From Corynebacterium pseudopelargi (lineage in GTDB: Bacteria > Actinomycetota > Actinomycetes > Mycobacteriales > Mycobacteriaceae): DNA of 64,000 nucleotides. The notes beneath the pieces are model-generated. The model did not search any database, had not been told where the DNA came from, and saw nothing but the letters and a program-made list of their open reading frames with translations. Shown here one piece after another: positions 6,475 through 57,104 of this stretch. The stretch covers positions 806,001-870,000 of the forward strand of contig NZ_CP033898.1 of the NCBI RefSeq assembly GCF_003814005.1, read 5' to 3'. Both the position numbers and the translations under genes were made by a program. Positions within the stretch are counted from its first letter, which is position 1, and each line of letters starts with the position of its first letter.

Positions 6475-8019
6475 ATGAACATGCGGGTAGCTGAAGTGGC
6501 GCGCATCGCCGGTGGCACCGTGCATGGTGATGGAGATGTGCTGGTCCACGGCATCGGATTGGATTCCCAAGAGCTGGCACCAGGCGCCCTGTTTGCCGCG
6601 CTGCCTGGCACTCGTAACCACGGCGCCCGCTTCGCGGCAGATACCCCGGCTGCGGCCATCCTCAGCGATGCTCAAGGCTTTGAGCTTTTGGCACAAGCTG
6701 GCGAACAGCGCCCGGTGATCGTGGTGGAAGATATCCGAGCCATCCTCGGCCAGGTTTCCTCAGCGCTCTACAACAATCCCTCCCAGCACCTTTGCGTGAT
6801 TGGCATTACCGGCACCTCTGGTAAAACCACCACGAGCTACCTGCTCGAGGCCGGGCTCATGCATGCCGGCCTGCACGTAGGGCTGATCGGCACCACCGGC
6901 ACCCGCATCAACGGCACGAAGGTTCCCACGCAACTGACCACGCCAGAAGCCCCGAAGCTGCAAGAGCTTTTTGCCCGCATGGTGGAACAGGGTGTGACGC
7001 ATGTGGTGATGGAAGTGTCTTCTCACGCCCTGGCATTGGGGCGCGTGGGTGGCACCAAATTTGATGCGGCAGGGTTTAGCAACCTCACCCAAGACCATCT
7101 CGATTTCCACCCCACGATGGAAGATTATTTCGAGACGAAGGCAAAGCTTTTTGATCCATCGAGTGAGCTCAGCCCTGAGAAGTCGGTGATCTGTATCGAT
7201 GATGAATGGGGTCAGGCCATGTTCGCTCGCGCCAAGCATCCTTGGGCGTTGGCGTCGAAAAGCTCCCAAGAAGGCGATGTAGTAGCCAACTACTTTGTAG
7301 AAGACGCCCAAACCAACGATGCAGGCACGCAGCACTTCACGCTGAATGCTCGTGGCCGGCGCATTGCTGTGGATCTGAACATGCCGGGGGCATTTAATAT
7401 CACCAATGCCAGCTTGGCTATTGCTCTGGCTGATGCTGTGGGCGTGGATGCAGACGTGGTGGCTGAAGGTTTAGCCACAGTCGGCGTGCCCGGACGTATG
7501 CAGCGAATCGATGCAGGTCAAGACTTTATTGCGGTGGTGGATTATGCCCACAAGCCTGCAGCGGTGGCCGCGGTGCTCGATACCATTCGTGCTCAAACCC
7601 CTGGGCGAGTAGCAGTGGTGTTAGGTGCTGGCGGTAATCGTGATGCCTCCAAGCGCGCGTTGATGGGTGAAGCTGCAGCCAGCAGGGCTGATTTGCTGAT
7701 CGTCAGCGACGATAACCCGCGTGATGAGGATCCATCGCAGATCCGAGCTGCCATTATGGAAGGCGCTGAAGCTGTAGATGATGGCGCGCAGATTGTAGAA
7801 GAAGGCGATCGTTTCGCAGCCATCCGCAAGGCCGTTCAGTGGGCCACGCCGGGTGATGCCATCGTGGTGGCCGGCAAAGGCCACGAGGTGGGCCAGTTGA
7901 TTCGCGGCGTACAGCACCACTTTGATGATCGTGAAGCTCTCGAGCTCGCCATCACCGAGATGCTGCAATCTCAGCCGAACACCGAAGACCCAAGCAATCA
8001 AGCAGGCGATAACGCATGA
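6475..8019 (+). CDS. murE: UDP-MurNAc-L-Ala-D-Glu:meso-diaminopimelate ligase
   Basis: Cytoplasmic ATP-dependent ligase that adds meso-diaminopimelate to UDP-MurNAc-dipeptide. The 514 residues contain the ATP loop GTSGKTTT (113-120), the central-domain ligand segment ending in DHLDFHPTMEDYF, and the DNPR motif (413-416 within DDNPRDEDP), which selects diaminopimelate over lysine. This agrees with the cell wall type of corynebacteria. The start ATG at 6475 follows GAAGGGAGC. An in-frame ATG two codons later is an alternative. The stop overlaps murF by 4 nt (ATGA). Confidence 0.96.
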   Translation: MNMRVAEVARIAGGTVHGDGDVLVHGIGLDSQELAPGALFAALPGTRNHGARFAADTPAAAILSDAQGFELLAQAGEQRPVIVVEDIRAILGQVSSALYNNPSQHLCVIGITGTSGKTTTSYLLEAGLMHAGLHVGLIGTTGTRINGTKVPTQLTTPEAPKLQELFARMVEQGVTHVVMEVSSHALALGRVGGTKFDAAGFSNLTQDHLDFHPTMEDYFETKAKLFDPSSELSPEKSVICIDDEWGQAMFARAKHPWALASKSSQEGDVVANYFVEDAQTNDAGTQHFTLNARGRRIAVDLNMPGAFNITNASLAIALADAVGVDADVVAEGLATVGVPGRMQRIDAGQDFIAVVDYAHKPAAVAAVLDTIRAQTPGRVAVVLGAGGNRDASKRALMGEAAASRADLLIVSDDNPRDEDPSQIRAAIMEGAEAVDDGAQIVEEGDRFAAIRKAVQWATPGDAIVVAGKGHEVGQLIRGVQHHFDDREALELAITEMLQSQPNTEDPSNQAGDNA

Positions 8020-9512
8020 TCCCCCTCGACTTAGCCAGCATTGCTCAGGCTTGTGGTGGCACCCTGAGCGCTGATGCCACCGGCAATGAGCTTATAAGCG
8101 GCAAGGTGGAATTTGATTCCCGCAAGATTAGCCAGGGCGATCTGTTTGTTGCCCTGCACGGCGCGCGCGTCGACGGCCACGACTTCGCCCAATCAGTGAT
8201 GCAAGCCGGTGCGGCAGGCGCGCTGGTGTTTCGCGATGTTGGCGTGCCTGCGGTCATTGCCGCCAAGGTGGAGCAGACGGGTTCTAATGCTTATGCCACA
8301 GCGCATGACAGCACTGGTGCTGCAGCCAGCGTGATCGCGGCGATGAGCTCATTGGCCCGCTATGTATGCGATCAGCTCACCCCTGAGCTTTGCGTGGTGG
8401 GAGTCACCGGCTCGGCAGGAAAGACCTCGGCCAAAGACATGATGGCCAGCATCTTTTCTGCACAAGCCCCCACGGTGGCACCGCCTGGTTCTTTTAATAA
8501 TGAAATCGGCCACCCCTACACAGTGCTGCGCTGTGATGCAGATACTCGCTTTTTAGTCAGCGAGCTTTCTGCCAGGGGAGTAGGCCATATTCGAGCACTT
8601 ACCCAGGTTGCTCCGCCGCGCATCGGCGTGGTGCTCAATGTGGGTTCTGCCCACCTTGGCGAGTTCGGATCTCAAGCAACCATCGCCAAAGCCAAAGGCG
8701 AATTAGTAGAGGCACTGCCAGCCGATGGCGTTGCCGTATTAAATGCCGACGATCCGCTTGTAGCCGCGATGGCCTCGCGCACCAAGGCGAAGGTGTGCAC
8801 CTTCGGCACCGCCGATAACGCCACTGTTCGAGCCAGCGACATTCGCCTCAATGCCCAGGCACAACCGGCTTTCCACCTGCACACACCTGAAGGTGAGGCC
8901 GAGATCCAGCTCAACGTCTCCGGTGAGCACCAAGTGTGGAATGCACTTGCTGCCATTGCAGCAGCGCTTGCAGCCGGCGTGGAGCTTGCTACCGCCGTTG
9001 ATGCAATCCAAGCGCACCGGAATGCCTCGGCCCACAGGATGGATGTGCGCCACCGCGCCGATGGGCTCACCGTGATCGATGATGCCTACAACGCCAACGC
9101 CGAATCCATGCGCGCAGGCATCCGTGCCGCGGTGAGCACAGCCCAAGCCAATAAGGGAAAAGCCATTGCAGTGCTTGGCCCGATGGGGGAGTTGGGCGAG
9201 GATTCCTCCGAAGAACACGAGCGGCTTGGAAAAGAGCTGGCCTGCCTTGGCATAGACAAGTTGGTGGTCGTTGGTGATCAACCAGACGCCCAAGCCCTAG
9301 CTCGCGGTGCAGGAGCATTGACTGAAGCTGTGACGCAGACGCCTGAGCAGGCTGCGGGTGTCGTCGAAAAGCTAGCTGGCTCACACGATACGGTGTTGGT
9401 CAAGGCTTCCAATGCATTTCAACTTTGGCGTGCGGCCGATGCTTTGATGGCCAATCACGCGACTAATGAAGCTCAACAGGAACAATCCGAACTGCAGGTG
9501 AATGACAAGTGA
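8016..9512 (+). CDS. murF: UDP-MurNAc-tripeptide:D-Ala-D-Ala ligase
   Basis: Adds D-alanyl-D-alanine to UDP-MurNAc-tripeptide, completing the pentapeptide. The 498 residues show the Mur ligase layout: an N-terminal substrate domain, the ATP loop GSAGKTS (132-138), and a C-terminal domain with the family sequence [11 protein letters not shown] and GPMGELG. It overlaps murE and mraY by 4 nt on each side (ATGA and GTGA), so translation is probably coupled. One copy of the repeated 11-mer CGTCGAAAAGC falls in its 3' part (9362-9372), read as Val-Val-Glu-Lys-Leu. Confidence 0.96.
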
Positions 9513-10612: not shown

Positions 10613-11977
10613 ATGGCATCCTCACTGCTTGAAGGCAAAATCATCGTCGCCGGTGCCGGCATTTCCGGTATCGGCACAGCACGGCTATTACAAAAGGTCG
10701 AAGCACATTTCGAGCTTGTCGACGCCTCCCCAGAAGCCCTCGAACGTGCCCAGGGGATCCCCACTGCCCTCATCGGGCCAGACACCCTTGAAGGCGCCTC
10801 GCTGGTAGTGACCTCGCCGGGTTGGCGCCCAGACTCGCCACTGCTGCTCGAGGCAGCCCAACGCGAGATCCCGGTCATTGGCGATGTTGAGCTTGCCTAC
10901 CGCCTTGATCGCGATGGTGCCTTTGGCAAGCCGCGCACCTGGATGGTGGTAACCGGAACAAATGGCAAAACCACCACCACCGCCATGCTGGCTGCGATGA
11001 TGCAAGCCGGCGGCTTCGAGGCTCAAGCCGTAGGCAATATCGGTGTGTCTATCGCCGAGGCACTGCTTGGCCCTCGCATTGATGTGCTCGTTGCAGAACT
11101 CTCTAGCTTCCAACTGCACTGGGCACCAACCCTGGTGCCTGATGTGGGCGTATTGCTCAACCTTGCCGATGATCACATTGATTGGCACGGCAGCTTCGAG
11201 GCATACGCGCAGGCCAAGGCCAAAGTTTTGGCAGCACCTATTCATATTGCCGGTATTGAAGATCCAGCCGTAGCCGAGCTCGCAGATGATCGCAGCATTG
11301 GTTTTCGCCTGGAGGCGCCTCAAGCCAATGAGCTTGGGGTGCTCAACGGCATGCTGGTTTCTCGCGCTTTCGGCGATTCCAATCTTCCGCTGGCACCAAC
11401 CGAGGGGATCCAACCTCCAGGGCCTGCCGGTATTGCCGATGCCTTGGCAGCGGCTGCAGCAGCTCGCTCCCAGGGGGTAAGCCCCGAAGCAATTGCCCAG
11501 GCCTTGCAAGAGTTCCAGGTTGCAGGCCACCGCGGCCAGCGGGTGGAAAACGAAGGCGGTGTTGTGGCGGTGGATAACTCCAAGGCCACCAACCCCCATG
11601 CTGCCGACGCTGCGCTTGCGGGCTTTGAGTCCATCATTTGGATTGCTGGTGGCCAGCTCAAGGGCGCAAGCGTAGAAGAGCTGGTGCGCAACCACGCCGA
11701 TCGCCTCAAAGCGGCAGCGCTGCTTGGTGTGGACCGCGAAGAAATTGCAGCACAGTTGCGTGCGCACGCACCAGGTGTAGAGATCATGTGCACCGCATCG
11801 ACCGATCCCGATAAGGCGATGGGTGAGGTAGTGGGGTTCGCCCTTTCTAGGTATGAGGATTCCGACGCCATCGTGCTGGCACCTGCAGCAGCCAGCTTGG
11901 ACATGTACACCAGCATGGCGCAGCGCGGTGACCTCTTTGCCTATTACATTCAAGCATTGAGCAAGTCAGCCAGATAG
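10613..11977 (+). CDS. murD: UDP-MurNAc-L-Ala:D-glutamate ligase
   Basis: Cytoplasmic ligase adding D-glutamate to UDP-MurNAc-L-alanine. The 454 residues begin with a Rossmann-like GAGISGIGTARLL motif. The ATP loop GTNGKTTTT follows at 115-123, then NLADDHIDWHGSFEAY and the C-terminal domain with VDNSKATNPHA and APAAASLDMY. It starts 3 nt after the mraY stop and is followed by ftsW after 16 nt, within the continuous cell-wall unit. Confidence 0.96.
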   Translation: MASSLLEGKIIVAGAGISGIGTARLLQKVEAHFELVDASPEALERAQGIPTALIGPDTLEGASLVVTSPGWRPDSPLLLEAAQREIPVIGDVELAYRLDRDGAFGKPRTWMVVTGTNGKTTTTAMLAAMMQAGGFEAQAVGNIGVSIAEALLGPRIDVLVAELSSFQLHWAPTLVPDVGVLLNLADDHIDWHGSFEAYAQAKAKVLAAPIHIAGIEDPAVAELADDRSIGFRLEAPQANELGVLNGMLVSRAFGDSNLPLAPTEGIQPPGPAGIADALAAAAAARSQGVSPEAIAQALQEFQVAGHRGQRVENEGGVVAVDNSKATNPHAADAALAGFESIIWIAGGQLKGASVEELVRNHADRLKAAALLGVDREEIAAQLRAHAPGVEIMCTASTDPDKAMGEVVGFALSRYEDSDAIVLAPAAASLDMYTSMAQRGDLFAYYIQALSKSAR

Positions 11978-11993: not shown

Positions 11994-13529
11994 ATGGCAC
12001 AGGGGTTGAACACCATTGCAAAGGCTGTTGGTTCGCGCCTGCGTGAAACCAGGCGCCGCCCCCTGGCCGATTACTACATCCTGATCATCGTCATCGGGCT
12101 GCTCACCGTCATCGGTGTGACACTGGTGGCCTCGAGTTCCATGACGTGGTCGATCTCGGCTGGCGGCAGCGCATGGACTACTGCGCTGCGTCAAACCATC
12201 ATGGTGATCCTCGGTTTGGGTGCCGGTTGGCTTGCCTTGAGGGTCCCACCGGGTGCGGTGCGCCGCATGGCCTTGCCATTTTTGGTCGTGTCTGTGGCCT
12301 TGCTCATTTTGGTGCTCACCCCGCTTGGCACCGGTTATGAGCAGGTGGGTTCCCAATCCTGGCTGGTGTTAGGTCCGCTTTCTTTTCAGCCTTCTGAGGT
12401 AGCCCGTATTGCCATCGCCATTTGGGGCGCGAGCTTTCTAGCCAATGGCGAACCGGGCACCAAGGAATTCAATCGCCGCATGTACTGGTTCCTTGGCGTC
12501 AGCCTTGCCATGTGTGGCTTGATCGCCATGGAGCACGACACCGGCATGGCCGTGACCTTCCTCATCGTGGTGTTTGCCGTATCAGTCTTCGCCGGCCTGG
12601 ATGGGCGCATGGTGTGGGGCACCGTCATCGCCGCCTTCGGCGCAATCGTGATGGTCTCCGTTGGCGGTGGCTACCGCAGCGACCGCATCGCGGTGTATTT
12701 CGATGCCCTCTTCGGGCGTTTCGACGACACCTCCGGTAAGGCATACCAGTCCTATCAGGGCTTCCTTTCGCTTGCCGACGGTTCCCTCACCGGCCTGGGC
12801 CTAGGCCAATCACGCGCCAAGTGGTTCTACTTGCCGGAGGCAAAAAACGACTTCATTTTCGCCGTGGTGGGCGAGGAGCTCGGCTTTGTTGGCGCCGCCG
12901 TCATCGTTGGACTATTCGCCACCCTAGGCGTGGTGGGATTCCGCACCGCCAAGCGCTGCTCCAACATGTACCTCTCACTGCTCGCCGGTGCGCTTACCGC
13001 ATCGGTGGTGGTGCAGGCCTTTGTCAACATGGCCTATGTGGTGGGGCTTGTGCCGGTGACCGGTATTCAGCTCCCACTGATCTCCGCCGGTGGTACCTCG
13101 GCCATTATTACGCTCACGGCCATGGGCCTGTTGCTTAGCTGTGCACGCCATGAGCCAGAGGCAATCTCTGCCATGCGCTCTTATGGCAGGCCAACCCTTG
13201 ACAGGCTTGTTGGTTTACCTGAGCCCTCATTAGAAGGCATCTCTGCGAGCAAATCGGTCCGCGCCAAGGCAGCTTCTTCTGCTTCTGGCAGCAGGCAAGA
13301 GGCTCGGCGCAGGCCAGCACCAAGCCGCGAAGCAGGAAGAACGCGCCCGCAGCGTGTTACCCCGGAGCGGGTAAATCCACGTCGCAGCCAGGCCCGCCCG
13401 GGTGCTGAGAGCGCCCAAGATACAGCTTCGGGCAATCGCTCGCGCCGATCCGAAGGTGGCGCTGGTAGCCTGAATAACCGTTCACGGGGGCAACGCCCCG
13501 CCCCACATCGCGACCGCAGGAGGCGCTAG
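11994..13529 (+). CDS. ftsW: Septal peptidoglycan polymerase FtsW (SEDS family)
   Basis: SEDS-family membrane glycosyltransferase that polymerises lipid II at the septum with FtsI. The 511 residues contain about ten transmembrane helices up to roughly residue 385. The conserved segments include GSQSWLVLGPLSFQPSEVARI, the loop containing GLGLGQSRAKWFYLPEAKNDFIF (SEDS signature), and GIQLPLISAGGTS. A long basic Ser/Arg/Pro-rich cytoplasmic tail of about 110 residues follows, which is longer than in E. coli but common in actinobacteria. The ATG at 11994 follows TGAGGAGAC. murG begins on the next base after its stop. Confidence 0.95.
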   Translation: MAQGLNTIAKAVGSRLRETRRRPLADYYILIIVIGLLTVIGVTLVASSSMTWSISAGGSAWTTALRQTIMVILGLGAGWLALRVPPGAVRRMALPFLVVSVALLILVLTPLGTGYEQVGSQSWLVLGPLSFQPSEVARIAIAIWGASFLANGEPGTKEFNRRMYWFLGVSLAMCGLIAMEHDTGMAVTFLIVVFAVSVFAGLDGRMVWGTVIAAFGAIVMVSVGGGYRSDRIAVYFDALFGRFDDTSGKAYQSYQGFLSLADGSLTGLGLGQSRAKWFYLPEAKNDFIFAVVGEELGFVGAAVIVGLFATLGVVGFRTAKRCSNMYLSLLAGALTASVVVQAFVNMAYVVGLVPVTGIQLPLISAGGTSAIITLTAMGLLLSCARHEPEAISAMRSYGRPTLDRLVGLPEPSLEGISASKSVRAKAASSASGSRQEARRRPAPSREAGRTRPQRVTPERVNPRRSQARPGAESAQDTASGNRSRRSEGGAGSLNNRSRGQRPAPHRDRRRR

Positions 13530-14666: not shown

Positions 14667-16091
14667 ATGATCGACCTCAGCCGCGTGCACATGATCGGTA
14701 TCGGCGGTGCAGGCATGTCGGGCGTTGCCCGCATTTTGCTCGCCCGTGGTGCCACCGTATCTGGCTCCGACGTCAAAGATTCTCGCCCGCTGCTGGCCTT
14801 ACGTTCCATGGGAGCCAAGATTGCGGTGGGCCACGCCAAGGAAAATCTCGAACTCTGCGGCGAGCTGCCCACGGTCGTGGTCACTTCCTTTGCCGCGATT
14901 CCTCAGTACAACCCTGAGCTGGTGGCTGCGCGAGACGCCGGCATTCCCGTGATCCGACGCTCCGATCTTCTAGGCGAGCTCATGGAGGGCTACCAGCAGG
15001 TGCTCATTGCTGGTACCCACGGCAAAACTTCCACCACTTCGATGACGGTTGTGGCGATGCAGGCTGCAGGGCTTGATCCCAGCTTTGCCATTGGTGGCCA
15101 ATTAAATAAGGCCGGCACCAACGCCCATCACGGCACCGGCAGCGCTTTCGTGGCGGAAGCCGATGAATCTGATGCTTCCTTGTTGCGCTACAAGCCCTCG
15201 GTTGCGGTGGTGACCAATATCGAGCCGGATCACTTGGATTATTTCCGTTCCGAAGACGCCTACTTCAAGGTATTTGAAGATTTCGCCGAGAGGATCGTCG
15301 AAGGGGGATCCCTGGTGGTCTGCTTGGATGATCCCCACGCGGCGGCCTTGGGCGAGCGCTTTAAAGACAAGATCAATGTGCTAGGTTATGGCACCAGTGA
15401 GGCAGCGAGCCGCCATCCCGAGCTTGCCCACACGGTGGTGGAGTCCATGCAGGTAGAAGCAGCAGGAACCCGCTGTGCCTTGCGCGTGGGGGAGCAGCAC
15501 ACCGAAGTGTTGATGCGCATTCCTGGTACCCACATGGTGCTCAATGCCGCAGCAGCGCTCACCGCTGGTGTGCTGGCTGGCGGCAACTTGGAGGAGCTGG
15601 CTCAGGGTATTTGTGATTTTTCTGGTGTGCGCCGTCGCTTCGAATTCCATGGTGAAGTAAGCCAGGGCCGCGCCAAGCGTGCCTTGGTCTACGACGATTA
15701 CGCCCACCATCCCACTGAGGTCGAGGCGGTGCTCCGCGCAGCCCGTGAGCGCCAGGAGGCCATTGGTGGCGGCAAGATCATTGCCGTATTCCAACCTCAC
15801 CTGTATTCGCGCACCATCGAGTTTGCTGATGAGTTCGCCCAAGCACTTTCGCTTGCCGACGCCGCCGTGGTGCTCGACATCTACGGCGCCAGGGAGGAGC
15901 CGGTAGAAGGAGTGAGCTCGCGGATCATCACCGAGTCGATGACGATCCCGACCGTATTCGAGCCCACCTTCTTAGATGTGCCCGAACGCGTGGCAGAGAT
16001 TGCAGAAGAACGAGACATGATTTTGACCATCGGTGCTGGCAGCGTGACCATGCTTGCCGATGAGATTTTGAAGCGTTTGAAGGAAGCCTAA
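14667..16091 (+). CDS. murC: UDP-MurNAc:L-alanine ligase
   Basis: First Mur ligase, adding L-alanine to UDP-MurNAc. From the ATG at 14667 the protein has 474 residues with [18 protein letters not shown] near the start, the ATP loop GTHGKTS (116-122), [10 protein letters not shown], and the C-terminal DDYAHHPTE plus FQPHLYSRT motifs. A TTG at 14619 would add 16 residues but has no ribosome site, whereas AAGGAC precedes the ATG by about 11 nt, so I chose the ATG. The stop overlaps the ftsQ start by one base. Confidence 0.94.
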
Positions 16092-16919: not shown

Positions 16920-18164
16920 ATGACTTCCCCAGATAACTACCTCGCCGTCATAAAGGTCGTCGGTGTCGGCGGCGGTGGCGTCAATGCTGTTGACCGCATG
17001 ATCGAAGAAGGCCTCAAGGGCGTGGAGTTCATCGCCGTGAACACCGACTCCCAGGCCCTTATGTTCTCCGACGCCGACGTCAAGTTGGATATCGGACGCG
17101 AAGCCACCCGTGGCCTCGGCGCGGGCGCCAACCCCGAGGTTGGCCGCACCTCCGCAGAAGACCACAAATCCGAGATCGAAGAAACCCTCAAGGGTGCCGA
17201 CATGGTCTTTGTTACCGCAGGCGAAGGCGGCGGCACCGGCACCGGCGCGGCCCCTGTGGTTGCCAGCATTGCTAAGAAGATGGGCGCGCTGACCGTTGGT
17301 GTTGTTACCCGCCCCTTCAACTTTGAAGGCAAGCGCCGCACCCGCCAGGCCATGGAGGGCATCCAGGCGCTGCGCGAGGTATGCGACACCCTCATCGTGA
17401 TCCCCAACCAGCGTCTGCTGGAAATGGGCGATCCTGATCTGACCATGGATGAAGCCTTCCGCGCTGCAGACCAGGTGCTCTACAACGGTGTGCAGGGTAT
17501 TACGAACCTCATCACCATCCCCGGCATGATCAACGTCGACTTCGCAGACGTTCGCTCCGTGATGGCCGATGCCGGCTCCGCGCTCATGGGCGTTGGTTCT
17601 GCTTCTGGCGATAACCGCGTATTTGAGGCAGCCCAGCAAGCGATCAACTCGCCATTGCTGGAGGCCACCATGGAAGGCGCTACCGGCGTGCTGCTTTCCG
17701 TTGCAGGTGGTTCCGATCTTGGCCTGCAGGAAGTCAACGATGCATCCAGCATGATTTCCGAGCTTGCCGACGACGACGTGAACCTCATCTTCGGTACGAT
17801 CTTCGACGATAACCTCGGCGATGAAGTTGTCGTTACCGTCATTGCCACCGGCTTTAATGGTGTAGAAAACAAGCTTCCCTCCAAGAAGGAGCCAGAGCAG
17901 GCAGCGCCTTCGCCTACTCCCGCACCGGAGTCGAGCTCCTTGTTCCAGCAGGACGAGGTGCCAAGCCCCCGTCATGCACTCAGCGATGAAGATCCGCAGC
18001 GCTATGAGGCTTCCCGCCAGGAGCCACAGCGTGGCGATTCGCGCGAACACTACGGTTCTCGCTCCGGTCTGTTTACCAACCGCGAGGAACGCCGCGATAC
18101 CTACAGCGATCGCTATAACCGCGGTGACGAAGACGATATCGACGTCCCGGACTTCCTCCGTTAA
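16920..18164 (+). CDS. ftsZ: Cell division GTPase FtsZ
   Basis: Tubulin-like GTPase that polymerises into the Z-ring. The 414 residues contain the nucleotide-binding [13 protein letters not shown] near the start, the tubulin signature GGGTGTG (103-109), and the T7-loop/catalytic region with [12 protein letters not shown] disordered linker of about 90 residues leads to the conserved C-terminal peptide [10 protein letters not shown], which binds SepF and FtsW. I chose the ATG at 16920 (AAAGGCGAG site about 10 nt upstream). A TTG 27 nt earlier would place unrelated residues in front of the standard [15 protein letters not shown] start. pgeF follows after 3 nt. Confidence 0.97.
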
Positions 18165-20265: not shown

Positions 20266-21228
20266 ATGCCGCTGACTCCAGCCGATGTGCATAACGTCGC
20301 TTTTAGTAAGCCACCGATCGGCAAGCGCGGATACAACGAGGACGAGGTTGACCAGTTCCTTGACCTGGTTGAGGACACGCTTGCGGAGATCCAGGAAGAA
20401 AACGAGGACCTCCGTCAGCAGGTTGAGGAGCTGAAGGCAGAATCGGGCCAGTCGGCTCCCGCGCCTGTTCGTACCGCTGCCTCCGCCGACGAGTCCAAGA
20501 TCCGCGAGGAAATCGAGGCTTCGCTCAAGGCCGAGTACGAAGGCAAGCTTGCCGACGCCCGCCGCGCCGCAGAGCAGGCACAGGGCGAACTTGCCAGTGC
20601 CCGCAAGGAACTGAAGTCGGCTCAGGAAGAGGCTCGTCGCGCTAAGTCTTCGAGCGCTCAGCCACAGGCCGCTGCTGCAGCAGCACCGGTTGCCAATGAT
20701 GAGCCGGCCAGCGCCGAGACTCACATGCAGGCCGCCAAGGTGCTCTCGCTTGCCCAAGAGATGGCCGATCGCCTCACCTCCGATGCGCGCAGCGAGTCCG
20801 ACTCCATGCTCACTGAGGCCCGTGAGGCCGCAGATAAGCGCGTCCGCGAGGCCGTGGAGCGTGCCAAGCGCACCGTCGAAGAAGCAGAGCAGAAGGCACA
20901 CGCACAGCTTTCCGACGCAAAGCAGCGCTCCGAGACCATGGTTTCTGAGGCCAAGCAGAAGTCCGAAAAGACCATCGCCGATGCCAATGCTCAGGCTGAG
21001 GCTCAGGTACGTAAGGCCGAAGACAAGGCTAACGCCCTGCAGGCAGATGCCGAGCGCAAGCACACCGAGATCATGGCTACCGTGAAGCAGCAGCAAAATG
21101 CGCTTGAAACCCGCATCGCAGAGCTGCGCACCTTCGAGCGTGAGTACCGCACTCGCCTCAAGACCCTCCTGCAAAGCCAGTTGGAGGATCTTGAAAGCCG
21201 CAGCACCTCCGCACCTGAAGGTCGCTAA
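20266..21228 (+). CDS. divIVA: Polar growth organiser DivIVA (Wag31)
   Basis: Coiled-coil scaffold that gathers at curved membrane at the cell poles and directs apical peptidoglycan synthesis in Actinobacteria. The 320 residues have the DivIVA N-terminal lipid-binding domain ([19 protein letters not shown] then [15 protein letters not shown]). A first coiled coil, an Ala/Pro-rich linker (about 140-160) and a long C-terminal coiled coil rich in Ala/Glu/Lys follow. I chose the ATG at 20266 after GAAGGGAAG. The open frame extends 225 nt upstream into what is clearly the untranslated region. A strong terminator follows. Confidence 0.96.
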
Positions 21229-40442: not shown

Positions 40443-41492
40443 TTAGAGCTTTTTTAGCTTGGAGCCCTCGCGCTCAGGTTTGTGTTCTACAAGCGCAGCG
40501 GGATCGGCCTGCCGTGCTTTGTTCAAGGCTTCTAGGCGCCTGCGCAAACGAGGCACGCGCTGTTTGGGGTGGGCTCCGCTGCTGCCGGTTTTTTCAATAT
40601 GCGTTTCGCCGAAGCTGAGTAACAGGAGGTCGTCGATAAGCCGAATTTGCCCAGGCTGGAAGCGATAATCAAGGCCGTCACGAACCAAGGCAATGCGCTG
40701 CGGAGCCAATAATTGCCGCAATTGTGAGGCGGTGGTGATGTCGTGGGCGTGCAGGAGTTCTTCGAGCCACTGATAGTGCTCGCTGCGCGATGGTGGCACG
40801 GTGTTGCCCAGGATCATCGCGATGATGCCGGGTAGCGTTTCTGCCGAAAACGCCACGTCTTTGCTGGAGGTGGTGTCGGGTTCTCGGATGGCGGCGATTT
40901 GGTCGAATTGTTGGTCGGCAAGTTCGATCAGCCCTGCGGTTAAGGTGAAGGCGCGATCGATTTGGGGGTCAAGATCCGTGGCGCGCTTATAGCGAATATC
41001 GTGTTCGAATTCCGCCCACGCATGCTGCAGCACGGTGCGGATCTGCACCTCGAATTGTTGGCCGATGTAATCGCGCAGGCTATCTACCCGTTCATCAACC
41101 TTCAGAATCAAGTGATGCGAGCCGTACCCAAAGCCGCCCGAGATTCTGGTCTGTGCGGTTTTATCCACCGAGCGAACAACGCTAAACACGTCGTCGATAG
41201 CATCAATGACGTGGGGAATTTCCGTGGAGTGCAAGGTGGTGATGCGCACGCCGATAATATCGTGCACATCTTGCCAAGGATCGGGATAGATCCACTTGCC
41301 TTCTGATTTTTTATTGGCCTTGGCCTTTAAAGAGTTCCACTTTTTTACTCGGGCAGAAACGCGATCATAGGTTAAGCCGGCATCAGCAAGCACATCTTCA
41401 AACGCCTCCACGAACTCCTCAGCGGCTTCGGGGTGATCCTGGTTAAACGCACGAAGCTTTTGGCTTAATTGCGTGATGCGCTTTGACCCCAC
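40443..41492 (-). CDS. RelA/SpoT-domain (p)ppGpp synthetase-like protein
   Basis: A 349-residue protein whose N-terminal half is a RelA/SpoT synthetase domain: D78 and R83 in DIIGVRI, Y123 and His in GYGSHH, and E148, Q150, R152 in FEVQIRT followed by LQHAWAEFEHD. No HD hydrolase domain is present. The C-terminal 180 residues are unassigned. It resembles the small alarmone synthetase RelP-like genes found beside treY in corynebacteria, of which at least one is reported inactive. Most synthetase motifs look intact here, so activity is open. The start GTG at 41492 is 6 nt after the treY stop, with AAAGGTAGG within the treY end. Confidence 0.8.
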   Translation of the reverse strand: MGSKRITQLSQKLRAFNQDHPEAAEEFVEAFEDVLADAGLTYDRVSARVKKWNSLKAKANKKSEGKWIYPDPWQDVHDIIGVRITTLHSTEIPHVIDAIDDVFSVVRSVDKTAQTRISGGFGYGSHHLILKVDERVDSLRDYIGQQFEVQIRTVLQHAWAEFEHDIRYKRATDLDPQIDRAFTLTAGLIELADQQFDQIAAIREPDTTSSKDVAFSAETLPGIIAMILGNTVPPSRSEHYQWLEELLHAHDITTASQLRQLLAPQRIALVRDGLDYRFQPGQIRLIDDLLLLSFGETHIEKTGSSGAHPKQRVPRLRRRLEALNKARQADPAALVEHKPEREGSKLKKL

Positions 41493-41498: not shown

Positions 41499-43877
41499 CT
41501 ACCTTTCTTTGACCAATAAACAACAAGGCAATGTAGCAAAAAGGTCCTCGCATGCCACCGTTGCGGTGTAGGTTTTGCCGCTGAGCTCATCGCGCCACGT
41601 GCCGGCGGGTAGCTTTACGGTGGTCTGTTCCCACTCATCGGCGCACTGCCACCGCGCGGGTTTGCGCACCGCAAAAGAGATCACCTGAAGCACACCGTTG
41701 GCGTCGCCGCGGGCAAAACCAATGCACTTCGATTCCGCAGGCCCTTGGGCAAATACGGCCTGGTAGGAGCCACCTATAAAGCATTCGGGCATTCTGGCTC
41801 GAAGCGCCAGGGCTGCGTGAGTGAGCTGCAATTTCGCTGCATCTGGATGCTCGAGATCCATCGGTGCTGCAAGCAATTGCTTCCTGCGGGTGTAATCGAC
41901 AAAGCGTCGGTTATCGGGGTCGACGAGGGAGTCGTCGAAAAGCTCGGTGCCCTGATACACATCGGGAATGCCCGGGGCGGTGAGCTGCAAGAGCTTTCTA
42001 CCCAAAGAAATTGGAAGGGCTGCTTGTTCAAGCTTTTCGACGAACGCACTAATCAAACCAGTAGCCGGCCCAGAAAGCAGCGCATCGATCCAATCACTTA
42101 CTGCACGTTCGAATTGCTCGTTTGGCTGCGTCCAGCTTGTGTGCACCCCGGCCTCGCGCACGGCCTTGAGCCCGTATTCTTGCACCCTGGAGCGCAACGC
42201 ATCAGTGAGCTCGCCACCTGCTGGCCACACACCCAAAATATTCTGGAATAAGAAATGCCCAGTGCCACCATCAGGGGCGGGCACGAGCTGCTGGACCTTG
42301 TGGCAAAGCTCCACAAAAGCCGCAGGATCTAAGGTGAGCGCGATGATGCGGGCGCGCACGTCCTCGCTGCGCTTGGTGTCGTGGGTAGAAAGGGTGGTCA
42401 TGGCCCTGGGCCAGAGTTTGGCGCGTTCTTGTTGCAACATATGAAACTCCGCGGCCGAAACCCCAAAGCGGCCGGGCGCGCCGCCGACTTCCTGGAGCGC
42501 CACCAAGCGGCACGCACGATAAAAGGTTGTATCTTCTACGCCCTTGGCCATCACCGCACCGCATACCTGTGCAAAACGCGTGGCCGCTTCACCTTCGGCG
42601 AGCATCGCTGCGGCAAAAACATCAAGTGCAGCCCTGCGGGTGGGGAAGCGGTGGGCGTGATCGGCAATGGCAGTGGCCGTTAAACGCGATAAAGAAAGAT
42701 AATCGGCGCGATACACCGGCATCTCTGCGATCAGCTCAATGACTGTTTCGCGCAACAGTTCCTCGCTCACGCTATGGCCACCGGTGGAGAAATTATCCGC
42801 ACGGATCGCACGAAGCAGCCTGCGAATCTCCGCGTCGAGTTCACCTTCGGCCACCTCTGCTTTAAGCAGGTGCTCCGTTGCGGCAATGGCCGTCGCATTC
42901 CATGTAGAACCTGATTGCTCTAAGGCCAACATGCTCAGCGCATCTTCGGCGCTGCGGTGTACGAACACGCCATCAAATTCCCTGAGTGCGTCATAACCAG
43001 TGGTGCCGTCGACTGCCAAACGAGGATCGAGGGGCTCTTCTACACCCAGGATCTTTTCAATCACCAGCCAACGATCACCAATTAAGGTGCGCAGCCGCTG
43101 CAGGTAGGCAAAAGGATCGGCCAGGCCATCGGGGTGATCGACGCGAACACCGTCGATGAGGTCTTCTTCGATCAACTGCTGGATCATGGCGTGGGAGTGT
43201 TCAAACACCTCTGGATCTTCTTGGCGGATGCCTGCAAGATCATTGACGGAGAAGAACCGGCGATAGTTGATCACGCCAGTGCGCCAGTCGAGCAGCGCAT
43301 AGTGCTGGCGATGATAGGTTTCCAGCGGCGTGTTCTGTTTGGTTCCCGGAGCAATGGGAAAGAGGTGCTCGTAGTAGCGAAGCACCTCCTGGCCATCAAC
43401 CACGTCGAATTCCAGGGCTGCTTCATCGCCTTCGGCACCCAGGACCGGTAGGGCAATGCGGCCGTGTGCACCATTGTCTTGCCTGAAATCAATATCAAAA
43501 TAATGCGCATAGGCAGAGCCTTGACCATGCTTGAGCACATCCCACCACCAGGCATTTTGAATGGGTTCGGCAATGCCTACGTGATTGGGCACGATATCGA
43601 TAACCACCCCCATGCCGAAACTCTTCGCGCGTTTTGCAAGGCTGCGAAAACCATCGATGCCCCCAAGCTCTGGGTTGATCACCGTGGGGTCTACCACGTC
43701 ATAGGAATGGGCGGAGCCTTCGCGTGATTGCAAAATGGGAGAAAGGTAGATGTGGCTTACACCCAAATCGTGCAAGTACTCCAAAATATCTTCGGCTTCG
43801 GAAAAACCGAAAGCGCGCCCATTGGGGTCAGCATTGGGGCCTCGAAGCTGCAAGCGGTACGTTGCGGTGATATTCAC
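41499..43877 (-). CDS. treY: Malto-oligosyltrehalose synthase
   Basis: GH13 isomerase converting the reducing-end linkage of maltodextrins into a trehalose unit, the substrate of TreZ. The 792 residues start with TATYRLQLRGPNADPNGRAF and contain the GH13 blocks VIDIVPNHVGI and DGVRVDHPDGLADP. The C-terminal DVYQGTELFDDSLVDPDNRRFVDY is typical of TreY. The start is GTG at 43877, with TAGGGT 7 nt upstream (weak leaderless pattern) and AAGAGG directly before it. It leads into the RelA-domain gene after 6 nt. Two copies of CGTCGAAAAGC lie within it, in opposite orientations (41933 and 42032). Confidence 0.94.
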   Translation of the reverse strand: MNITATYRLQLRGPNADPNGRAFGFSEAEDILEYLHDLGVSHIYLSPILQSREGSAHSYDVVDPTVINPELGGIDGFRSLAKRAKSFGMGVVIDIVPNHVGIAEPIQNAWWWDVLKHGQGSAYAHYFDIDFRQDNGAHGRIALPVLGAEGDEAALEFDVVDGQEVLRYYEHLFPIAPGTKQNTPLETYHRQHYALLDWRTGVINYRRFFSVNDLAGIRQEDPEVFEHSHAMIQQLIEEDLIDGVRVDHPDGLADPFAYLQRLRTLIGDRWLVIEKILGVEEPLDPRLAVDGTTGYDALREFDGVFVHRSAEDALSMLALEQSGSTWNATAIAATEHLLKAEVAEGELDAEIRRLLRAIRADNFSTGGHSVSEELLRETVIELIAEMPVYRADYLSLSRLTATAIADHAHRFPTRRAALDVFAAAMLAEGEAATRFAQVCGAVMAKGVEDTTFYRACRLVALQEVGGAPGRFGVSAAEFHMLQQERAKLWPRAMTTLSTHDTKRSEDVRARIIALTLDPAAFVELCHKVQQLVPAPDGGTGHFLFQNILGVWPAGGELTDALRSRVQEYGLKAVREAGVHTSWTQPNEQFERAVSDWIDALLSGPATGLISAFVEKLEQAALPISLGRKLLQLTAPGIPDVYQGTELFDDSLVDPDNRRFVDYTRRKQLLAAPMDLEHPDAAKLQLTHAALALRARMPECFIGGSYQAVFAQGPAESKCIGFARGDANGVLQVISFAVRKPARWQCADEWEQTTVKLPAGTWRDELSGKTYTATVACEDLFATLPCCLLVKER

Positions 43878-46048: not shown

Positions 46049-46063
46049 TGGGGTTCCTTCAGG

Positions 46064-48244
46064 CTACAAGCTGTATTCGTCGGTGGGTTTCTTTTGCTCT
46101 GGCTCGACCATACGCAACAACATTGAGGTGCGAGCGGGAAGCTCGATGGTGCCACCTGATTGAATGATCAGCGCTTCTTCCGGGTGCCCTGTGTCTTGGT
46201 CGGTATCAACGATCATCTTCCAGGACGCACCGTATTGCTCGCCGGGCAAGGTGAACTCGATCGGCTCGTGGTAGGCGTTGAACATGAGGATGAAGGAGTC
46301 GTCGACAAGCCTTTGGCCTCGCATATCGGTTTCGGTGATGCCTTGGCCGTTGAGGTAGACCATGAGGGATTTGCCAAAGGCGAAGCCCCAATCGTCTTGA
46401 GTCATCAAACGTCCGGCGGGGGTCAGCCAGGCGATGTCGCGGTCGCGCACCTCAGAGCCAAGCGGGCCACCGGCGAGGAAGCGGCGACGACGAAATACCG
46501 GGTGATTCTGGCGGATTCGGATGAGGCGTTTGGTAAATTCCACCAGCTCTTCGTTTTCGGTGGCCAAATCCCAATCGATCCAACTGAGCTCATTGTCTTG
46601 GCAGTAGACATTGTTATTGCCACCTTGGGTTCTGCCCATCTCATCGCCGTGAGCCAGCATCGGGGTGCCAAGGCTGAGCATCAAGGTGGTGAGGAAATTG
46701 CGGTGCTGGCGCTGGCGCAGCTTCAACACCGTCTCATCGTCTGTGGGGCCTTCCACACCGCAGTTCCACGAGCGGTTGTGGCTTTCGCCGTCGCGGTTGC
46801 CTTCACCATTGGCCTCGTTGTGCTTTTCGTTATAACTGACCAGGTCATTAAGGGTAAAGCCATCGTGAGCGGTGACGAAGTTGATGCTGGCAGTAGGCCT
46901 GCGGCCGTTATTGGCATAAAGGTCGGAGGATCCGGTGATGCGCGAGGCGAATTCTCCTAAGGTAGCGGGCTCGCCGCGCCAGAAATCACGAACCGTGTCG
47001 CGGTACTTGCCATTCCATTCCGTCCACAAGGGAGGGAAGTTGCCAACCTGGTAGCCGCCCTCGCCCACATCCCAGGGTTCGGCGATCAACTTCACCTGCG
47101 ATACCACCGGGTCTTGCTGTACAAGATCGAAGAATGTTGCAAGCCTGTCGACGTCATGTAATTCACGAGCCAGCGTGGATGCAAGATCGAAACGGAATCC
47201 ATCCACATGCATCTCGGTAACCCAGTAGCGCAGCGAATCCATGATCATCTGCAATGGGTGGGGGTCTCGAACATTCAGGGAGTTACCGGTGCCGGTGTAG
47301 TCCATATAGTGCGCACGGTCGCCGTCGACAAGCCGGTAGTAGGCCTCGTTATCGATGCCGCGAAACGCGATGGTCGGCCCTAAGTGGTTGCCCTCGGCGG
47401 TGTGGTTGTACACCACGTCCAAAATGACTTCGATGCCTGCCTCGTGGAAGCTTCGCACCATGCCCTTGAATTCGCTGACCGCGCCACCAGGATGGCGCGA
47501 TGCCGAATAATCCTGGTGCGGTGCGAAAAAGCCGAAGGTGTTATAGCCCCAGTAATTGCGCAGACCAAGATCGCGCAGGCGATCATCCTGGAGGAATTGG
47601 TGCACCGGCAAAAGCTCAATCGCGGTGATGCCGAGATCTTTGAGGTACGCAATGATCGCCGGGTGCGCAAGGCCGGCGTAGGTGCCGCGGAGTTCCTCGG
47701 GAACATCCGGGTGCGTCATGGTCATGCCCTTGACGTGGGCTTCGTAAATGACCGTCTCATTAAAAGGGATCTTTGGCGCGCGATCAGCACCCCAGTCAAA
47801 GAAGGGGTTGACCACCACGGACTTCATGGTGTGCGGCAGGCTATCTTCGGTATTTCTGCCGTGGGGATCATCCGGGTGGTGGATGTCGTAGCTAAACAGT
47901 GAGGGATGGCCATCGAACTCGCCATCAAACGCCCTGGCGTAGGGATCAACCAGCAACTTGGTGGCATCGCAGCGCTTGCCCGCATCTGGATCATAAGGGC
48001 CGTGCACGCGGTAGCCATAGCGCTGCCCTGGGGTAACGCCGGGAAGGTAGCAGTGCCACACATGGGCATCAACCTCACGCAATTCGATGCGTTCTTCCTG
48101 GTCATCTTCGTCGATCAGGCACAGCTCCACTTTGTCTGCAACATTGGAAAAGATTGCAAAGTTCGTGCCAGCGCCGTCATAGGTGGATCCCAAAGGGTAT
48201 GCGTCGCCGGGCCAAATCTGGCGTGCCGGTGCTGAGTCAGTCAT
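46064..48244 (-). CDS. glgX: Glycogen debranching enzyme GlgX
   Basis: GH13 alpha-1,6-glucosidase acting on phosphorylase-limited glycogen. The 726 residues contain an N-terminal CBM48-like domain (YPLGSTYDGAGTNFAIFSN), VIYEAHVKGMTMTHPDVPEELRGTYAG, DVVYNHTAEGNHLGPT and the catalytic GFRFDLASTLARE, all GlgX features. It complements GlgP encoded at the end of the window and feeds maltodextrins to TreY/TreZ. The ATG overlaps the stop of the TetR-type gene by 4 nt. Confidence 0.95.
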   Translation of the reverse strand: MTDSAPARQIWPGDAYPLGSTYDGAGTNFAIFSNVADKVELCLIDEDDQEERIELREVDAHVWHCYLPGVTPGQRYGYRVHGPYDPDAGKRCDATKLLVDPYARAFDGEFDGHPSLFSYDIHHPDDPHGRNTEDSLPHTMKSVVVNPFFDWGADRAPKIPFNETVIYEAHVKGMTMTHPDVPEELRGTYAGLAHPAIIAYLKDLGITAIELLPVHQFLQDDRLRDLGLRNYWGYNTFGFFAPHQDYSASRHPGGAVSEFKGMVRSFHEAGIEVILDVVYNHTAEGNHLGPTIAFRGIDNEAYYRLVDGDRAHYMDYTGTGNSLNVRDPHPLQMIMDSLRYWVTEMHVDGFRFDLASTLARELHDVDRLATFFDLVQQDPVVSQVKLIAEPWDVGEGGYQVGNFPPLWTEWNGKYRDTVRDFWRGEPATLGEFASRITGSSDLYANNGRRPTASINFVTAHDGFTLNDLVSYNEKHNEANGEGNRDGESHNRSWNCGVEGPTDDETVLKLRQRQHRNFLTTLMLSLGTPMLAHGDEMGRTQGGNNNVYCQDNELSWIDWDLATENEELVEFTKRLIRIRQNHPVFRRRRFLAGGPLGSEVRDRDIAWLTPAGRLMTQDDWGFAFGKSLMVYLNGQGITETDMRGQRLVDDSFILMFNAYHEPIEFTLPGEQYGASWKMIVDTDQDTGHPEEALIIQSGGTIELPARTSMLLRMVEPEQKKPTDEYSL

Positions 48245-49845: not shown

Positions 49846-49856
49846 CGTCGAAAAGC
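49846..49856 (+). repeat. Copy of the recurrent 11-mer CGTCGAAAAGC (intergenic)
   Basis: Lies in the gap between the lipoprotein gene and the following membrane protein gene, about 28 nt before the start at 49884. It is followed by T, giving the 12-mer form. Confidence 0.75.
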
Positions 49857-54064: not shown

Positions 54065-54354
54065 AGCTGGCAAATAGCGCTCCTTTGACTCGGCGTGCGT
54101 AGTTTTTGCCACGCGGGTTGCGTCGAAAAGCGATGCTGCTTGCTGCCAGAAACCACACACGGTGCGCCTGGAGCCCTGGTGGTGTGATGGGGTTTGAAGT
54201 GACGCATCCGGGGGCATTGCTGCAGCTTGAATTGACTTCTTTGCAGCAGGGGATAGTGTCGGTGGCAGATCACCTAAAAAACTCAGGCTCCGAAGCATTC
54301 TTCGGGGTCATTCATTTTGCCCGATTTGTCCCATCGTCACCCCGGAGGTGAATC
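54035..54354. other. Gene-free gap before the transporter gene
   Basis: 320 nt without a convincing gene; the open frame at 54106-54351 lacks a ribosome site and family likeness. It holds the second half of the 18-bp tandem repeat, a copy of CGTCGAAAAGC (54121-54131), a small CCGAAG-CATT-CTTCGG hairpin (54290-54305), and the GGAGGT ribosome site (54344-54349) of the transporter. Confidence 0.6.
54121..54131 (+). repeat. Copy of the recurrent 11-mer CGTCGAAAAGC (intergenic)
   Basis: Third intergenic copy; here followed by G rather than T, the only copy of the nine that lacks the twelfth base. Confidence 0.75.
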
Positions 54355-55686
54355 ATCGCTGCCACCGCTGTTCAAGATCGTGTCAATGAAGCTCAACGCT
54401 CAACAGCATCGGCGGTGCTTCGCTTACCTGGGCTCATGCCCACGATTATTGCGGTAGCGGCGGCCTTTGCGGCTTTTTCCATACTGCTTCCCGTGATTCC
54501 GCTTGCGGTGATTTCCCACGGCGGCACGGATACCTTGGCGGGTTTGGCCACCGGCGTGTTCATGGCCGTGACGGTGGCAACGCAGTTGATCACGAATCGT
54601 CTGGTGCAGCGCTTCGGTTTTCGCCCCGTAATGCTCGTTGCCGCCTTGCTGCTTGGTTTGCCCGCGCTATGGCACATGTTCAGCTTCGCCGCGCCTTCTG
54701 TGTTGATCGTTGCAGGGTTAAGGGGCGTCGGTTTCGGCGCATTGTGCGTGGCGCAGTATGCCCTGGTTGGCCAATTGGTTCCCGCTGGCATGTTGGGCAA
54801 GGCCTCCGGTTTGATTGGCGTGTTTGTCGGAGCTTCTCAGATGGTGTTCTTGCCGGTGGGGCTTTGGCTTCTCGACGCTGGCGTATCCATGAACATCGTG
54901 TTGCTCTTAGCCGCCGCGGTGGCTTTGTTGGCAGCAGTAATGTGCATCTGGATTCCCTCGGTAGAACCGGAGCGGCCTGAACCGTGGTCGCCTGAGCACG
55001 ACCCCGCGGTGAAGAAAGTCTCCTTGCGCCGCAGGGTGACCATGCGTGTGGTGCGCAGGCCAAGGCGCAAAGGTATGAAAGTAACTATTGCCCCTGCGAT
55101 TGCTTTGGCCAGCGTTTCTATGGGCTATGGTGCCGTATCAAGTTTCTTGCCGGCCTCGGTGCGCGAGGCTGATCCCGTCAGCGGTGCCTCCATTGCTGGC
55201 ATGATGCTCTCGATTGTCGGTTTGGCGCAGCTTGTATCGCGCTATATCTCTGGCTCGATTGCGGATCGCCAGAACAAAGCAGGCCTTGGAATGCTGCCTG
55301 GCCTGGCGATGTCTTCTGTGGGCATGGCTGGCATGTGCGCGGTTATTGCCTGGAGCCTGCCATTGTGGCTGTTAATCATGGCCGCTGTCTGTTTTGGTGC
55401 AGGTTTCGGGCTCGTACAAAACGATGCACTGCTAGAAATGTTCCTGCGCGTGCCGCGCGAGCGTCTAGGTTCTGCCTCCACGGTGTGGAATGCATCCTTT
55501 GATACCGGCACCGGCATCGGCGCTATCACCTTAGGCATCGTTGCCGCATCGCATGGCTATACGGGCGCCTTCTTGTGCGGAGCGATGCTGGTGGTGCTGG
55601 GTATTACGGCCGAAGTTATTGACCGTGTGCGCAGAAGTAGGGCACTGGCCAAGCTCAGCGCCGGCGAACGCGAAGCCCTCCGGTAG
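54355..55686 (+). CDS. MFS transporter, possible AUC start codon
   Basis: Major facilitator protein with twelve hydrophobic segments and the loop motif [12 protein letters not shown]; no substrate can be inferred. Standard start codons give a GTG at 54415 (423 residues) that has no ribosome site. A perfect GGAGGT at 54344-54349 instead points to an in-frame ATC at 54355, 5 nt away. This would add a plausible cytoplasmic N-terminus ([19 protein letters not shown]). The GTG at 54348 is in another frame and soon stops. Either an ATC start is used, or the ATC is a mutation or error of ATG. The gene precedes hisH. Confidence 0.78.
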
Positions 55687-56361: not shown

Positions 56362-56378
56362 TACACTAATTGGCTATG
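56362..56378 (+). promoter_or_regulatory. Candidate leaderless promoter of hisA (TACACT-N8-ATG)
   Basis: TACACT at 56362-56367, then AATTGGCT, then ATG at 56376. The element is identical in hexamer and spacing to those of dnaE, treZ and yigZ. Confidence 0.55.
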
Positions 56379-57104
56379 ACCTTTACGCTTCTTCCCGCAG
56401 TCGATGTGGTTAATGGCCAAGCCGTGCGCCTGAATCAAGGTGAGGCAGGCACCGAGCAATCCTATGGCAGCCCCCTTGAGTCGGCGCTTCGCTGGCAGGA
56501 GGCCGGGGCGCGCTGGCTTCACTTTGTGGATTTGGATGCCGCTTTTGGCCGTGGATCGAATCACGAAATGATGGCGCAGGTCGTCGAAAAGCTGGATTTG
56601 CAGGTGGAATTAACCGGCGGCATTCGTGATGATGCAAGTTTGCAGCGCGCGCTCGATACCGGCGCCCAGCGCGTCAACATTGGCACCGCGGCCCTAGAGC
56701 AGCCCGAGTGGATCGCCGATGTGCTGGCGAAATATGGCGACAAAGTTGCAGTGGATCTGGCTGTGAAGCTTATCGACGGCCAGTGGCGCACCCGTGGCAA
56801 AGGGTGGGTCAGCGATGGCGGCGATCTTTGGGAGGTACTCGAAAGACTCGACGCCGCAGGCTGCCAGCGTTTCGTGGTAACCGACGTATCCAAAGACGGC
56901 ATGATGAGCGGGCCAAATGTGGATCTGCTTCGCGATGTCGCTGCCGCCACGGACGCAAAGATCGTGGCCTCAGGTGGTATCAGCACTCTTGATGATGTGC
57001 TCGAACTTGCCAAGTACGAAGAAGAAGGCATCGATTCGGCCATCATTGGCAAAGCCCTATATGAAGGCACGATTGATTTGCGTGAGGCACTCCAAGCCCT
57101 ATGA
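56376..57104 (+). CDS. hisA: Phosphoribosyl-formimino-AICAR-phosphate isomerase (HisA/PriA)
   Basis: TIM-barrel isomerase of histidine synthesis, 242 residues. It shows [15 protein letters not shown], the first catalytic Asp region, VDLDAAFG, and the second in [18 protein letters not shown], plus [13 protein letters not shown]. Actinobacterial PriA can also perform the TrpF reaction. The loop [19 protein letters not shown], where PriA specificity lies, is similar, but dual activity cannot be decided by eye. A TTG at 56370 is in frame, but the promoter layout points to the ATG. It overlaps impA by 4 nt. One CGTCGAAAAGC copy lies inside (56582). Confidence 0.95.

Follow-up and report, generated by a model that had tools for sequence, protein, structure and literature searches.

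A bipartite chromosomal word in Corynebacterium pseudopelargi that resembles a DNA uptake sequence

In a 64,000-nucleotide stretch of the main contig of Corynebacterium pseudopelargi (NZ_CP033898.1, positions 806,001 to 870,000; hereafter the window) we observed a recurrent word, CGTCG-NN-AAGC, in which nine fixed bases surround two variable ones. We consider that it looks like a DNA uptake sequence (DUS) and, with a probability of roughly 0.6, that it works as the DUS form of C. pseudopelargi and many of its relatives. Its abundance, lack of strand polarity, conservation at individual sites, filling of synonymously permitted slots, absence near phage terminases and differing spellings in related species, taken together, match DNA uptake sequences. 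The wider proposal, to which we give about even odds, is that of a DUS in at least three dialects in much of the genus, which would be read by a machine composed of Tad pilus, ComEA and ComEC; the species would then be naturally transformable, partly isolated from each other by an 11-base spelling, and the switching between spellings would be traceable site by site. To our knowledge, uptake sequences are established only in two Gram-negative families. In searches of the open-licence PubMed Central (PMC) literature (mostly by listing), neither an uptake sequence nor the present word was found to be described for Corynebacterium; 21 papers contain a 10-base part of the word, and among the ten of them listed none is about Corynebacterium by its title.

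Structure, strand balance and codon context

The initial annotation had described nine exact copies of the 11-mer CGTCGAAAAGC (hereafter the AA form) in the window, eight of them sharing T as the next base, together with about nine copies of a one-base variant. Our recount returned the same nine copies (dinucleotide shuffles gave a mean of 0.06 and reached nine in 0 of 100 runs), a following T in eight of them, and nine copies of the variant CGTCGACAAGC. The division into a motif and a separate variant was not borne out, since the inner two bases vary and the nine fixed positions hold, so that both are one bipartite word. In a 464-kb sample of the window's genome (G000, 2.35 Mb; the sample comprises the window and 20 evenly spaced stretches) this CGTCG-spelling word, CGTCGNNAAGC, is present 175 times, where its two halves would predict 8; the inner bases are AA in 51 copies, AC in 42, GC in 23 and AT in 18 (with others in the remainder), and the two commonest forms are seldom met with a substitution at one of the nine fixed positions. 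In the window the word numbers 28 (14 plus, 14 minus), and the spacing in G000 (about one per 2.6 thousand bases) extrapolates from the sample to roughly 900 sites per genome. Over the whole of G000, the AA form is present in 277 copies against 21 of the reversed control (i.e. the same letters read backwards), a genome-wide enrichment that strongly supports the suggestion of a chromosome-scale signal. In copies outside coding sequences (CDS), a G-rich run lies just upstream (the adjacent base is G in 33 of 61), and the two bases downstream are T or A and then A (G000 pooled with a second genome, G026); the upstream periodicity of G inside CDS is probably in part a third-codon-base effect.

The strand bias that had been regarded as a property of the 11-mer (8 of 9 copies on one strand of the window, two-sided p = 0.04) is a sampling accident. 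Across G000 the AA form has 138 forward and 139 reverse copies, and the totals for 242 Corynebacterium genomes are 9172 and 9041, respectively; among the 165 genomes enriched in it, none is skewed at p<0.01 and two are at p<0.05. The bipartite word, over the window and the 20 stretches, counts 86 plus and 89 minus copies (the most skewed stretch having 7 to 2), and no run of polarity was found along the sampled stretches around the chromosome (origin and terminus not mapped). An orienting role comparable to that of FtsK-orienting polar sequences (KOPS), or of any other strand-polar segregation guide, had the 8 of 9 copies in its favour and falls because the bias on which it rested disappears genome-wide; balanced strands in G000 and the 242 genomes contradict it, and we assign it next to no probability. 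Among the four functions that the initial annotation had put forward (FtsK/KOPS-like orientation, recombination hotspot, uptake and nucleoid signal), uptake fits best.

A binding site for an abundant nucleoid-organising or segregation protein, with no role in uptake, is one of the two most serious rivals. It would agree with a word that is conserved, lies on both strands, in coding and intergenic DNA, and is spread along the sampled chromosome a little more regularly than chance would give (coefficient of variation of the gaps 0.8 in G000). On the other hand, no precedent is known to us among nucleoid proteins for an asymmetric word at about 900 places with a spelling that varies within one genus, and the orienting kind (as typified by KOPS) predicts a polarity that is absent; we regard this explanation as unlikely. 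Neighbours closer than 100 bp showed no clear excess in four genomes (observed against expected: G000 8 and 6.8; G026 8 and 5.4; G006 5 and 6.5; G071 5 and 8.0), which led us to reject inverted pairs as a general feature. Of the pairs closer than 60 bp, 10 of 15 are inverted (G000 3/6, G026 6/6, G006 0/1, G071 1/2), the close inverted pairs of G026 (samples L021-L030) being suggestive.

Codon use had been dismissed as an explanation in the initial annotation, and in substance this stands, with the qualification that most CDS sites share a frame. Our own simple caller of open reading frames (ORFs) recovered 412 genes covering 83% of the bases of the 464-kb sample (genes are probably under-called), which assigns 138 copies of the word to CDS and 37 to the remaining DNA; when synonymous codons were shuffled gene by gene, a mean of 7.2 words and a maximum of 15 in 30 runs remained. 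Of these 138 sites, as many as 106 are antisense and share one main frame, which is the frame with the most synonymously permitted slots and in which the reverse complement of the word reads Leu-any-Asp. In G000, 106 of the 265 permitted slots of this frame carry the CGTCG word and 11 of 265 the CATCG spelling, while in G006, a genome that uses CATCG, 71 of 137 slots carry CATCG and 2 of 137 the other spelling; the filling of the other frames of G000 ranges from 1/64 to 15/35. Codon, dicodon or mutational bias without any signal would account for the concentration of sites in one antisense frame, and favoured codons alone can fill the V-x-K frame of G006, where 7 of 14 slots hold the CGTCG form. 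As the whole cause, this bias is ruled out by the codon shuffles and by slots that each genome fills with its own spelling and not with the other one; moreover, the density outside CDS is not below that inside (per 10 kb, 4.6 outside and 3.6 inside in G000; 5.4 and 5.2 in G026), and sites are conserved far above matched shuffled words (see below). The explanation is thus already contradicted, and we hold it to be extremely improbable. The CDS sites are mostly antisense in G000 (109/138) and mostly sense in G071 (53/78), an opposition that argues against a function at the transcript level.

Enrichment, conservation and spellings across the genus

Taking as enriched a genome with 20 or more copies and a threefold or higher ratio to the reversed control, we found the AA form enriched in 165 of the 242 Corynebacterium genomes, present in 10 or fewer copies in 69, and between these states in 8. 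The named records with the motif belong to Corynebacterium (C. urinipleomorphum 1152 copies, control 69; Corynebacterium sp. MSK041 1010, control 56). Outside the family, 24 genomes of the same order have 0 to 24 copies of the 11-mer, the top genome having 24 against a control of 21; a TadA scan of named genomes included 7 Corynebacterium loci among the 80 that were kept, and 73 loci of other genera contain the word 27 times in 1.30 Mb. Individual sites are conserved over moderate distances: between G000 and G007 (85% identity) all nine fixed bases are kept at 58 of 63 sites, as compared to 26 of 102 for shuffled words (Fisher p 3e-18), and between G000 and G113 (79% identity) at 30 of 43, as compared to 13 of 75 (Fisher p 2e-8).

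Related species differ in spelling. G006 has 5 copies of the 11-mer but 108 copies of CATCGNNAAGC, the CATCG-spelling word, in 200 kb (6 expected), and the CATCG spelling exceeds 450 copies in 14 genomes of the genus (490-1337), in which the AA form is near or below its control (0-18 copies), with the exception of G080 (35, control 13). Four genomes (G084, G088, G190 and G214) have 159-223 CATCG copies and few of the other spelling, and many genomes of the genus have 40-60. A different word, TGACGYCGCG, reaches 1106 copies in G071 (control 27) and not more than 103 in any other genome. Over-representation beyond composition and codon use, occurrence on both strands within and between genes, and spellings that differ between related species, which are among the features by which uptake sequences are recognised, are all observed here. 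A weaker word, GTGGCGTCG, is about 9-12 fold over-represented in G066 (28, 2.3 expected) and G010 (33, 3.7 expected) and may represent a fourth dialect; it is followed by an A-rich stretch (G066 samples L049, L050 and L059-L063; G010 samples L043, L044 and L064-L068) and has GCGTCG in common with many copies of the window's word. Moderate counts of CGTCGAAAAGC together with CATCGNNAAGC were observed in G091, G105, G136, G210, G211 and G262, among others, and such genomes perhaps have a relaxed CRTCG dialect or are in transition. A search for enriched words in G014, G015, G030, G033, G067 and G070 (120-140 kb each, in which a rare dialect could be missed) revealed nothing that we judged to be above the coding background. 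G014 (L057, L058, L074-L078, L106 and L115) is in several proteins as near to G006 as G063 is, yet has no enriched word, perhaps owing to loss of the word or to an unseen dialect.

A comparison of aligned sites is suggestive of switching between dialects. The CATCG sites of G006, when aligned with five CGTCG genomes, are found in the CGTCG form in 9 of 35 pairs and in the CATCG form in 1 of 35 (shuffled words are intact in 4 of 29), and, when aligned with three genomes that have neither word, in 0 of 25 and 1 of 25, respectively; the p of 0.007 for 9/35 against 0/25 is a guide only, since pairs share sites and are not independent. In the reverse direction, the CATCG form stands at 3 of 8 sites of G000 in G006 and at 0 of 1 in G063. 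The switch in the main frame is synonymous (GAC to GAT), so that codon preference contributes to the switched sites.

Foreign DNA, competence genes and the case for uptake

The word is under-represented in recently acquired foreign DNA, as is expected of uptake sequences. Among 121 genomes, 8 have matches to the PF03354 profile, which located 12 phage terminases in all; nine of these terminases (from six genomes) were used as prophage neighbourhoods, an assignment made from the terminase alone. Those in G131 (where the motif is nearly missing) and G032 and the third one in G072 were left out, and two of the nine matches (one in G161 and one in G022) fall below the family cut-off. Within 5 kb on either side of the nine terminases there are 0 word sites in 90 kb, as compared to 43 in 100 kb for the middle 10 kb of ten host stretches (from five of the six genomes, G022 having no control of its own). 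Over their full 20 kb, the terminase stretches contain 17 sites (180 kb in total), none of which falls in the middle 10 kb, and the corresponding control 81 in 200 kb. Phage CL31 has the word 2 times in 45 kb; its terminase shares 75% identity with that of one prophage in G094, and its host may not use the CGTCG dialect. The 3.1-kb second contig of the window's genome, which has no named match in the plasmid collection, carries no word sites.

Two rivals would also account for the absence from terminase neighbourhoods. A self-marker of a defence or modification system (i.e. a modified or protected word) would agree with it, and with a spelling that varies between species, but would hardly explain why so many synonymous slots are filled; known self-modification acts on sites that are already there, and we know of no case in which it makes new ones accumulate. 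We consider this explanation distinctly improbable. The other of the two most serious rivals is a Chi-like hotspot of recombination, recognised by an enzyme that resects double-strand breaks but is not RecBCD (e.g. AdnAB), to which we would give a small chance, hardly different from that of a nucleoid site. Chi in Escherichia coli is mostly oriented, and our word has no polarity along the chromosome; moreover, none of the 61 Corynebacterium genomes examined for RecC (PF04257) gave a match (AddAB and AdnAB not searched for), and a Chi of the RecBCD type is not supported. In favour of a Chi-like word are its shortness, lack of a palindrome, over-representation and conservation, and the spellings of Chi, according to parts of PMC8022716, also differ between lineages.

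Genes for a possible uptake machine are nearly universal in the genus. ComEC (PF03772) is present in 241 of the 242 genomes, and TadA (TIGR03819) in 232 above its curated cut-off and in 239 with any match. The window's genome has one cluster that reads ssd-tadA-tadB-tadC-flp-tadE-Rv3654c-like and a second that reads comEA-comEC-holA, in which the identities of the genes other than TadA and ComEC are putative, given by likeness and position. All ten fetched Tad loci contain other Tad genes, and all ten fetched ComEC loci contain ComEA. Since ComEC and TadA are present with or without the word, their presence neither tracks nor proves a link, and we discarded it as a discriminator of word-bearing genomes. 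In G167, which also has no word, the ComEC match on contig C1 holds an in-frame TGA (a single case, which may be a sequencing error). HolA (loci L109-L117), which we take to be DNA polymerase III delta, has 9 columns that set G006, G063 and G014 apart, as compared to 0-1 in 11 other proteins; its split includes G014, a genome without the word, and it was rejected as a dialect-following protein.

Under the uptake reading, a receptor of the Tad/Flp pilus, or else ComEA, would preferentially capture word-bearing DNA released by lysed kin; ComEC would import this DNA, and recombination would follow. Word-bearing alleles would win repeatedly, and in this way permitted slots would be filled, sites would be kept over moderate distances and phage DNA would stay without the word; a change in receptor specificity, with subsequent conversion of sites to the new spelling, would give rise to dialects such as CATCG-NN-AAGC and TGACGYCGCG. 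The sequences themselves show the word, its enrichment and conservation, its different spellings, its absence around phage terminases and the presence of Tad, comEA and comEC genes; competence, the uptake preference, the receptor, the drive and the cause of the dialect changes are what we infer here.

Several observations weigh against this reading. The conservation of sites and their absence near phage terminases would be equally expected of a chromosomal word under selection for some other role. No receptor candidate was found to follow the dialects among TadE, the Rv3654c-like protein, Flp and ComEA (ComP was not searched for): with at most 4 against 3 sequences, dialect-separating positions numbered 0, 0, 0 and 2, respectively, in a first comparison and 1, 0, 1 and 2 in a second. 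Genomes in which we detected no word (G014, G067, G015 and others) have ComEC and TadA as well, and C. variabile (86 copies, control 81) and a metagenome-assembled genome of C. urealyticum (56, control 55) are not enriched. At larger distances conservation fades, as G000 has 2 of 13 aligned sites in common with five CGTCG genomes of 71-75% identity (G094 0/9, G026 0/1, G241 0/1, G009 1/1, G161 1/1). The word is denser inside CDS than outside in G006 (6.0 and 2.4 per 10 kb) and G071 (7.0 and 5.0), the reverse of G000, and codon preference suffices for the V-x-K frame of G006. Furthermore, the separation of the dialects is not perfect and their spellings are not fully exclusive (about fifteen genomes hold 118-165 CATCG copies beside a moderate count of the AA form), and the evidence for site-by-site switching is modest and suggestive only. 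We consequently regard membership in the uptake-sequence class as probable rather than proven.

If the uptake reading is true, with dialects in many Corynebacterium species, natural transformation would have gone unrecognised in a large genus that includes commensals, pathogens and industrial strains, recently acquired DNA could be recognised by a simple sequence label, and the manner in which a receptor changes its word would become a testable question in a Gram-positive with Tad pili. If uptake is not its role, there is still a conserved word to account for, one that occupies about 40% of the slots open to it in its main frame.

Copies in the window and known systems

The nine AA-form copies of the window comprise four in sense orientation (7253..7263, plus strand, in CDS 6475-8019; 9362..9372, plus, in CDS 8016-9512; 42032..42042, minus, in CDS 41499-43877; and 56582..56592, plus, in CDS 56376-57104), two in antisense orientation (37789..37799, plus, in CDS 37189-38868; and 41933..41943, plus, in CDS 41499-43877) and three on the plus strand at 27896..27906, 49846..49856 and 54121..54131 (the last being the only one without the following T), which lie outside our own ORF calls in agreement with the three intergenic copies of the initial annotation. 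CGTCGACAAGC is sense at 22366..22376 (plus; CDS 21494-24697, which we take to encode isoleucyl-tRNA synthetase), intergenic by the same ORF calls at 61514..61524 (plus) and antisense at 2791..2801 (minus; CDS 2591-3586), 10714..10724 (minus; CDS 10613-11977), 29656..29666 (minus; CDS 29522-30454), 46300..46310 and 47323..47333 (both plus; CDS 46064-48244), 57948..57958 (minus; CDS 57871-58647) and 61930..61940 (minus; CDS 61565-62983, presumably pyruvate kinase). CGTCGGCAAGC is antisense on the minus strand at 12770..12780 (CDS 11994-13529), 15851..15861 (CDS 14619-16091), 17762..17772 (CDS 16920-18164) and 20547..20557 (CDS 20266-21228), and, again by our ORF calls, intergenic at 40302..40312 (plus). 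The remaining copies are all antisense: CGTCGGAAAGC at 20907..20917 (minus; CDS 20266-21228), CGTCGTGAAGC at 25579..25589 (minus; CDS 24764-26089), CGTCGATAAGC at 40631..40641 (plus; CDS 40443-41492) and 56768..56778 (minus; CDS 56376-57104), and CGTCGAGAAGC at 54867..54877 (minus; CDS 54436-55686). Positions 37189-48244 of the window, an ordinary stretch, presumably encode TreZ-, TreY- and GlgX-like proteins of glycogen and trehalose metabolism. Elsewhere in the genome, stretch L006 (C1:625001-645000) holds at about 3663-6208 a CRISPR-like array of 41 repeats with GTGTTCCCCGCG at a spacing of about 61 bases, the repeat of which resembles type I-E.

Among known systems, KOPS are short words dispersed over the chromosome and defined by their polarity towards dif; ours has the dispersal and not the polarity. 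The uptake signal sequence (USS) of the Pasteurellaceae is, as here, a genome-wide word, and is considered to accumulate by biased uptake. In Haemophilus the USS often form terminators as inverted pairs (parts of PMC5217627); the present word has no clear excess of close neighbours, and 10 of 15 pairs closer than 60 bp are inverted, among them all 6 of G026, an orientation like that of the Haemophilus terminators. Chi, which acts on recombination (parts of PMC8022716), is likewise a short, over-represented and lineage-specific word, and differs in its chromosomal orientation and in its RecC, which was not found in the 61 Corynebacterium genomes examined. Micrococcus luteus is an actinobacterium with comEA, comEC and tad clusters, in which tad genes are needed for transformation (parts of PMC4322843 and PMC6370729); the terms ‘uptake sequence’ and ‘uptake signal’ had no match in the two M. 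luteus papers searched. Corynebacterium has the same kinds of comEA, comEC and tad genes, and its transformation by a Tad route is, unlike that of M. luteus, a proposal.

The closest likeness is to the DUS of the Neisseriaceae, an over-represented non-palindromic word of about 10 bases, the spellings of which differ between lineages and follow phylogeny (parts of PMC3630211). The raw ratio of one-mismatch to perfect copies is 0.75-1.42 in four of our genomes and 1.15 and 1.45 in two Neisseriaceae species (parts of PMC3630211); measured against the reversed-pattern background, one-mismatch copies are below it or level with it in G000 and G026 and above it in G006 and G071. The Corynebacterium word differs from the Neisseriaceae DUS in its sequence, in its bipartite build with two variable bases, and in being carried by Gram-positive bacteria with pilus genes of the Tad type.

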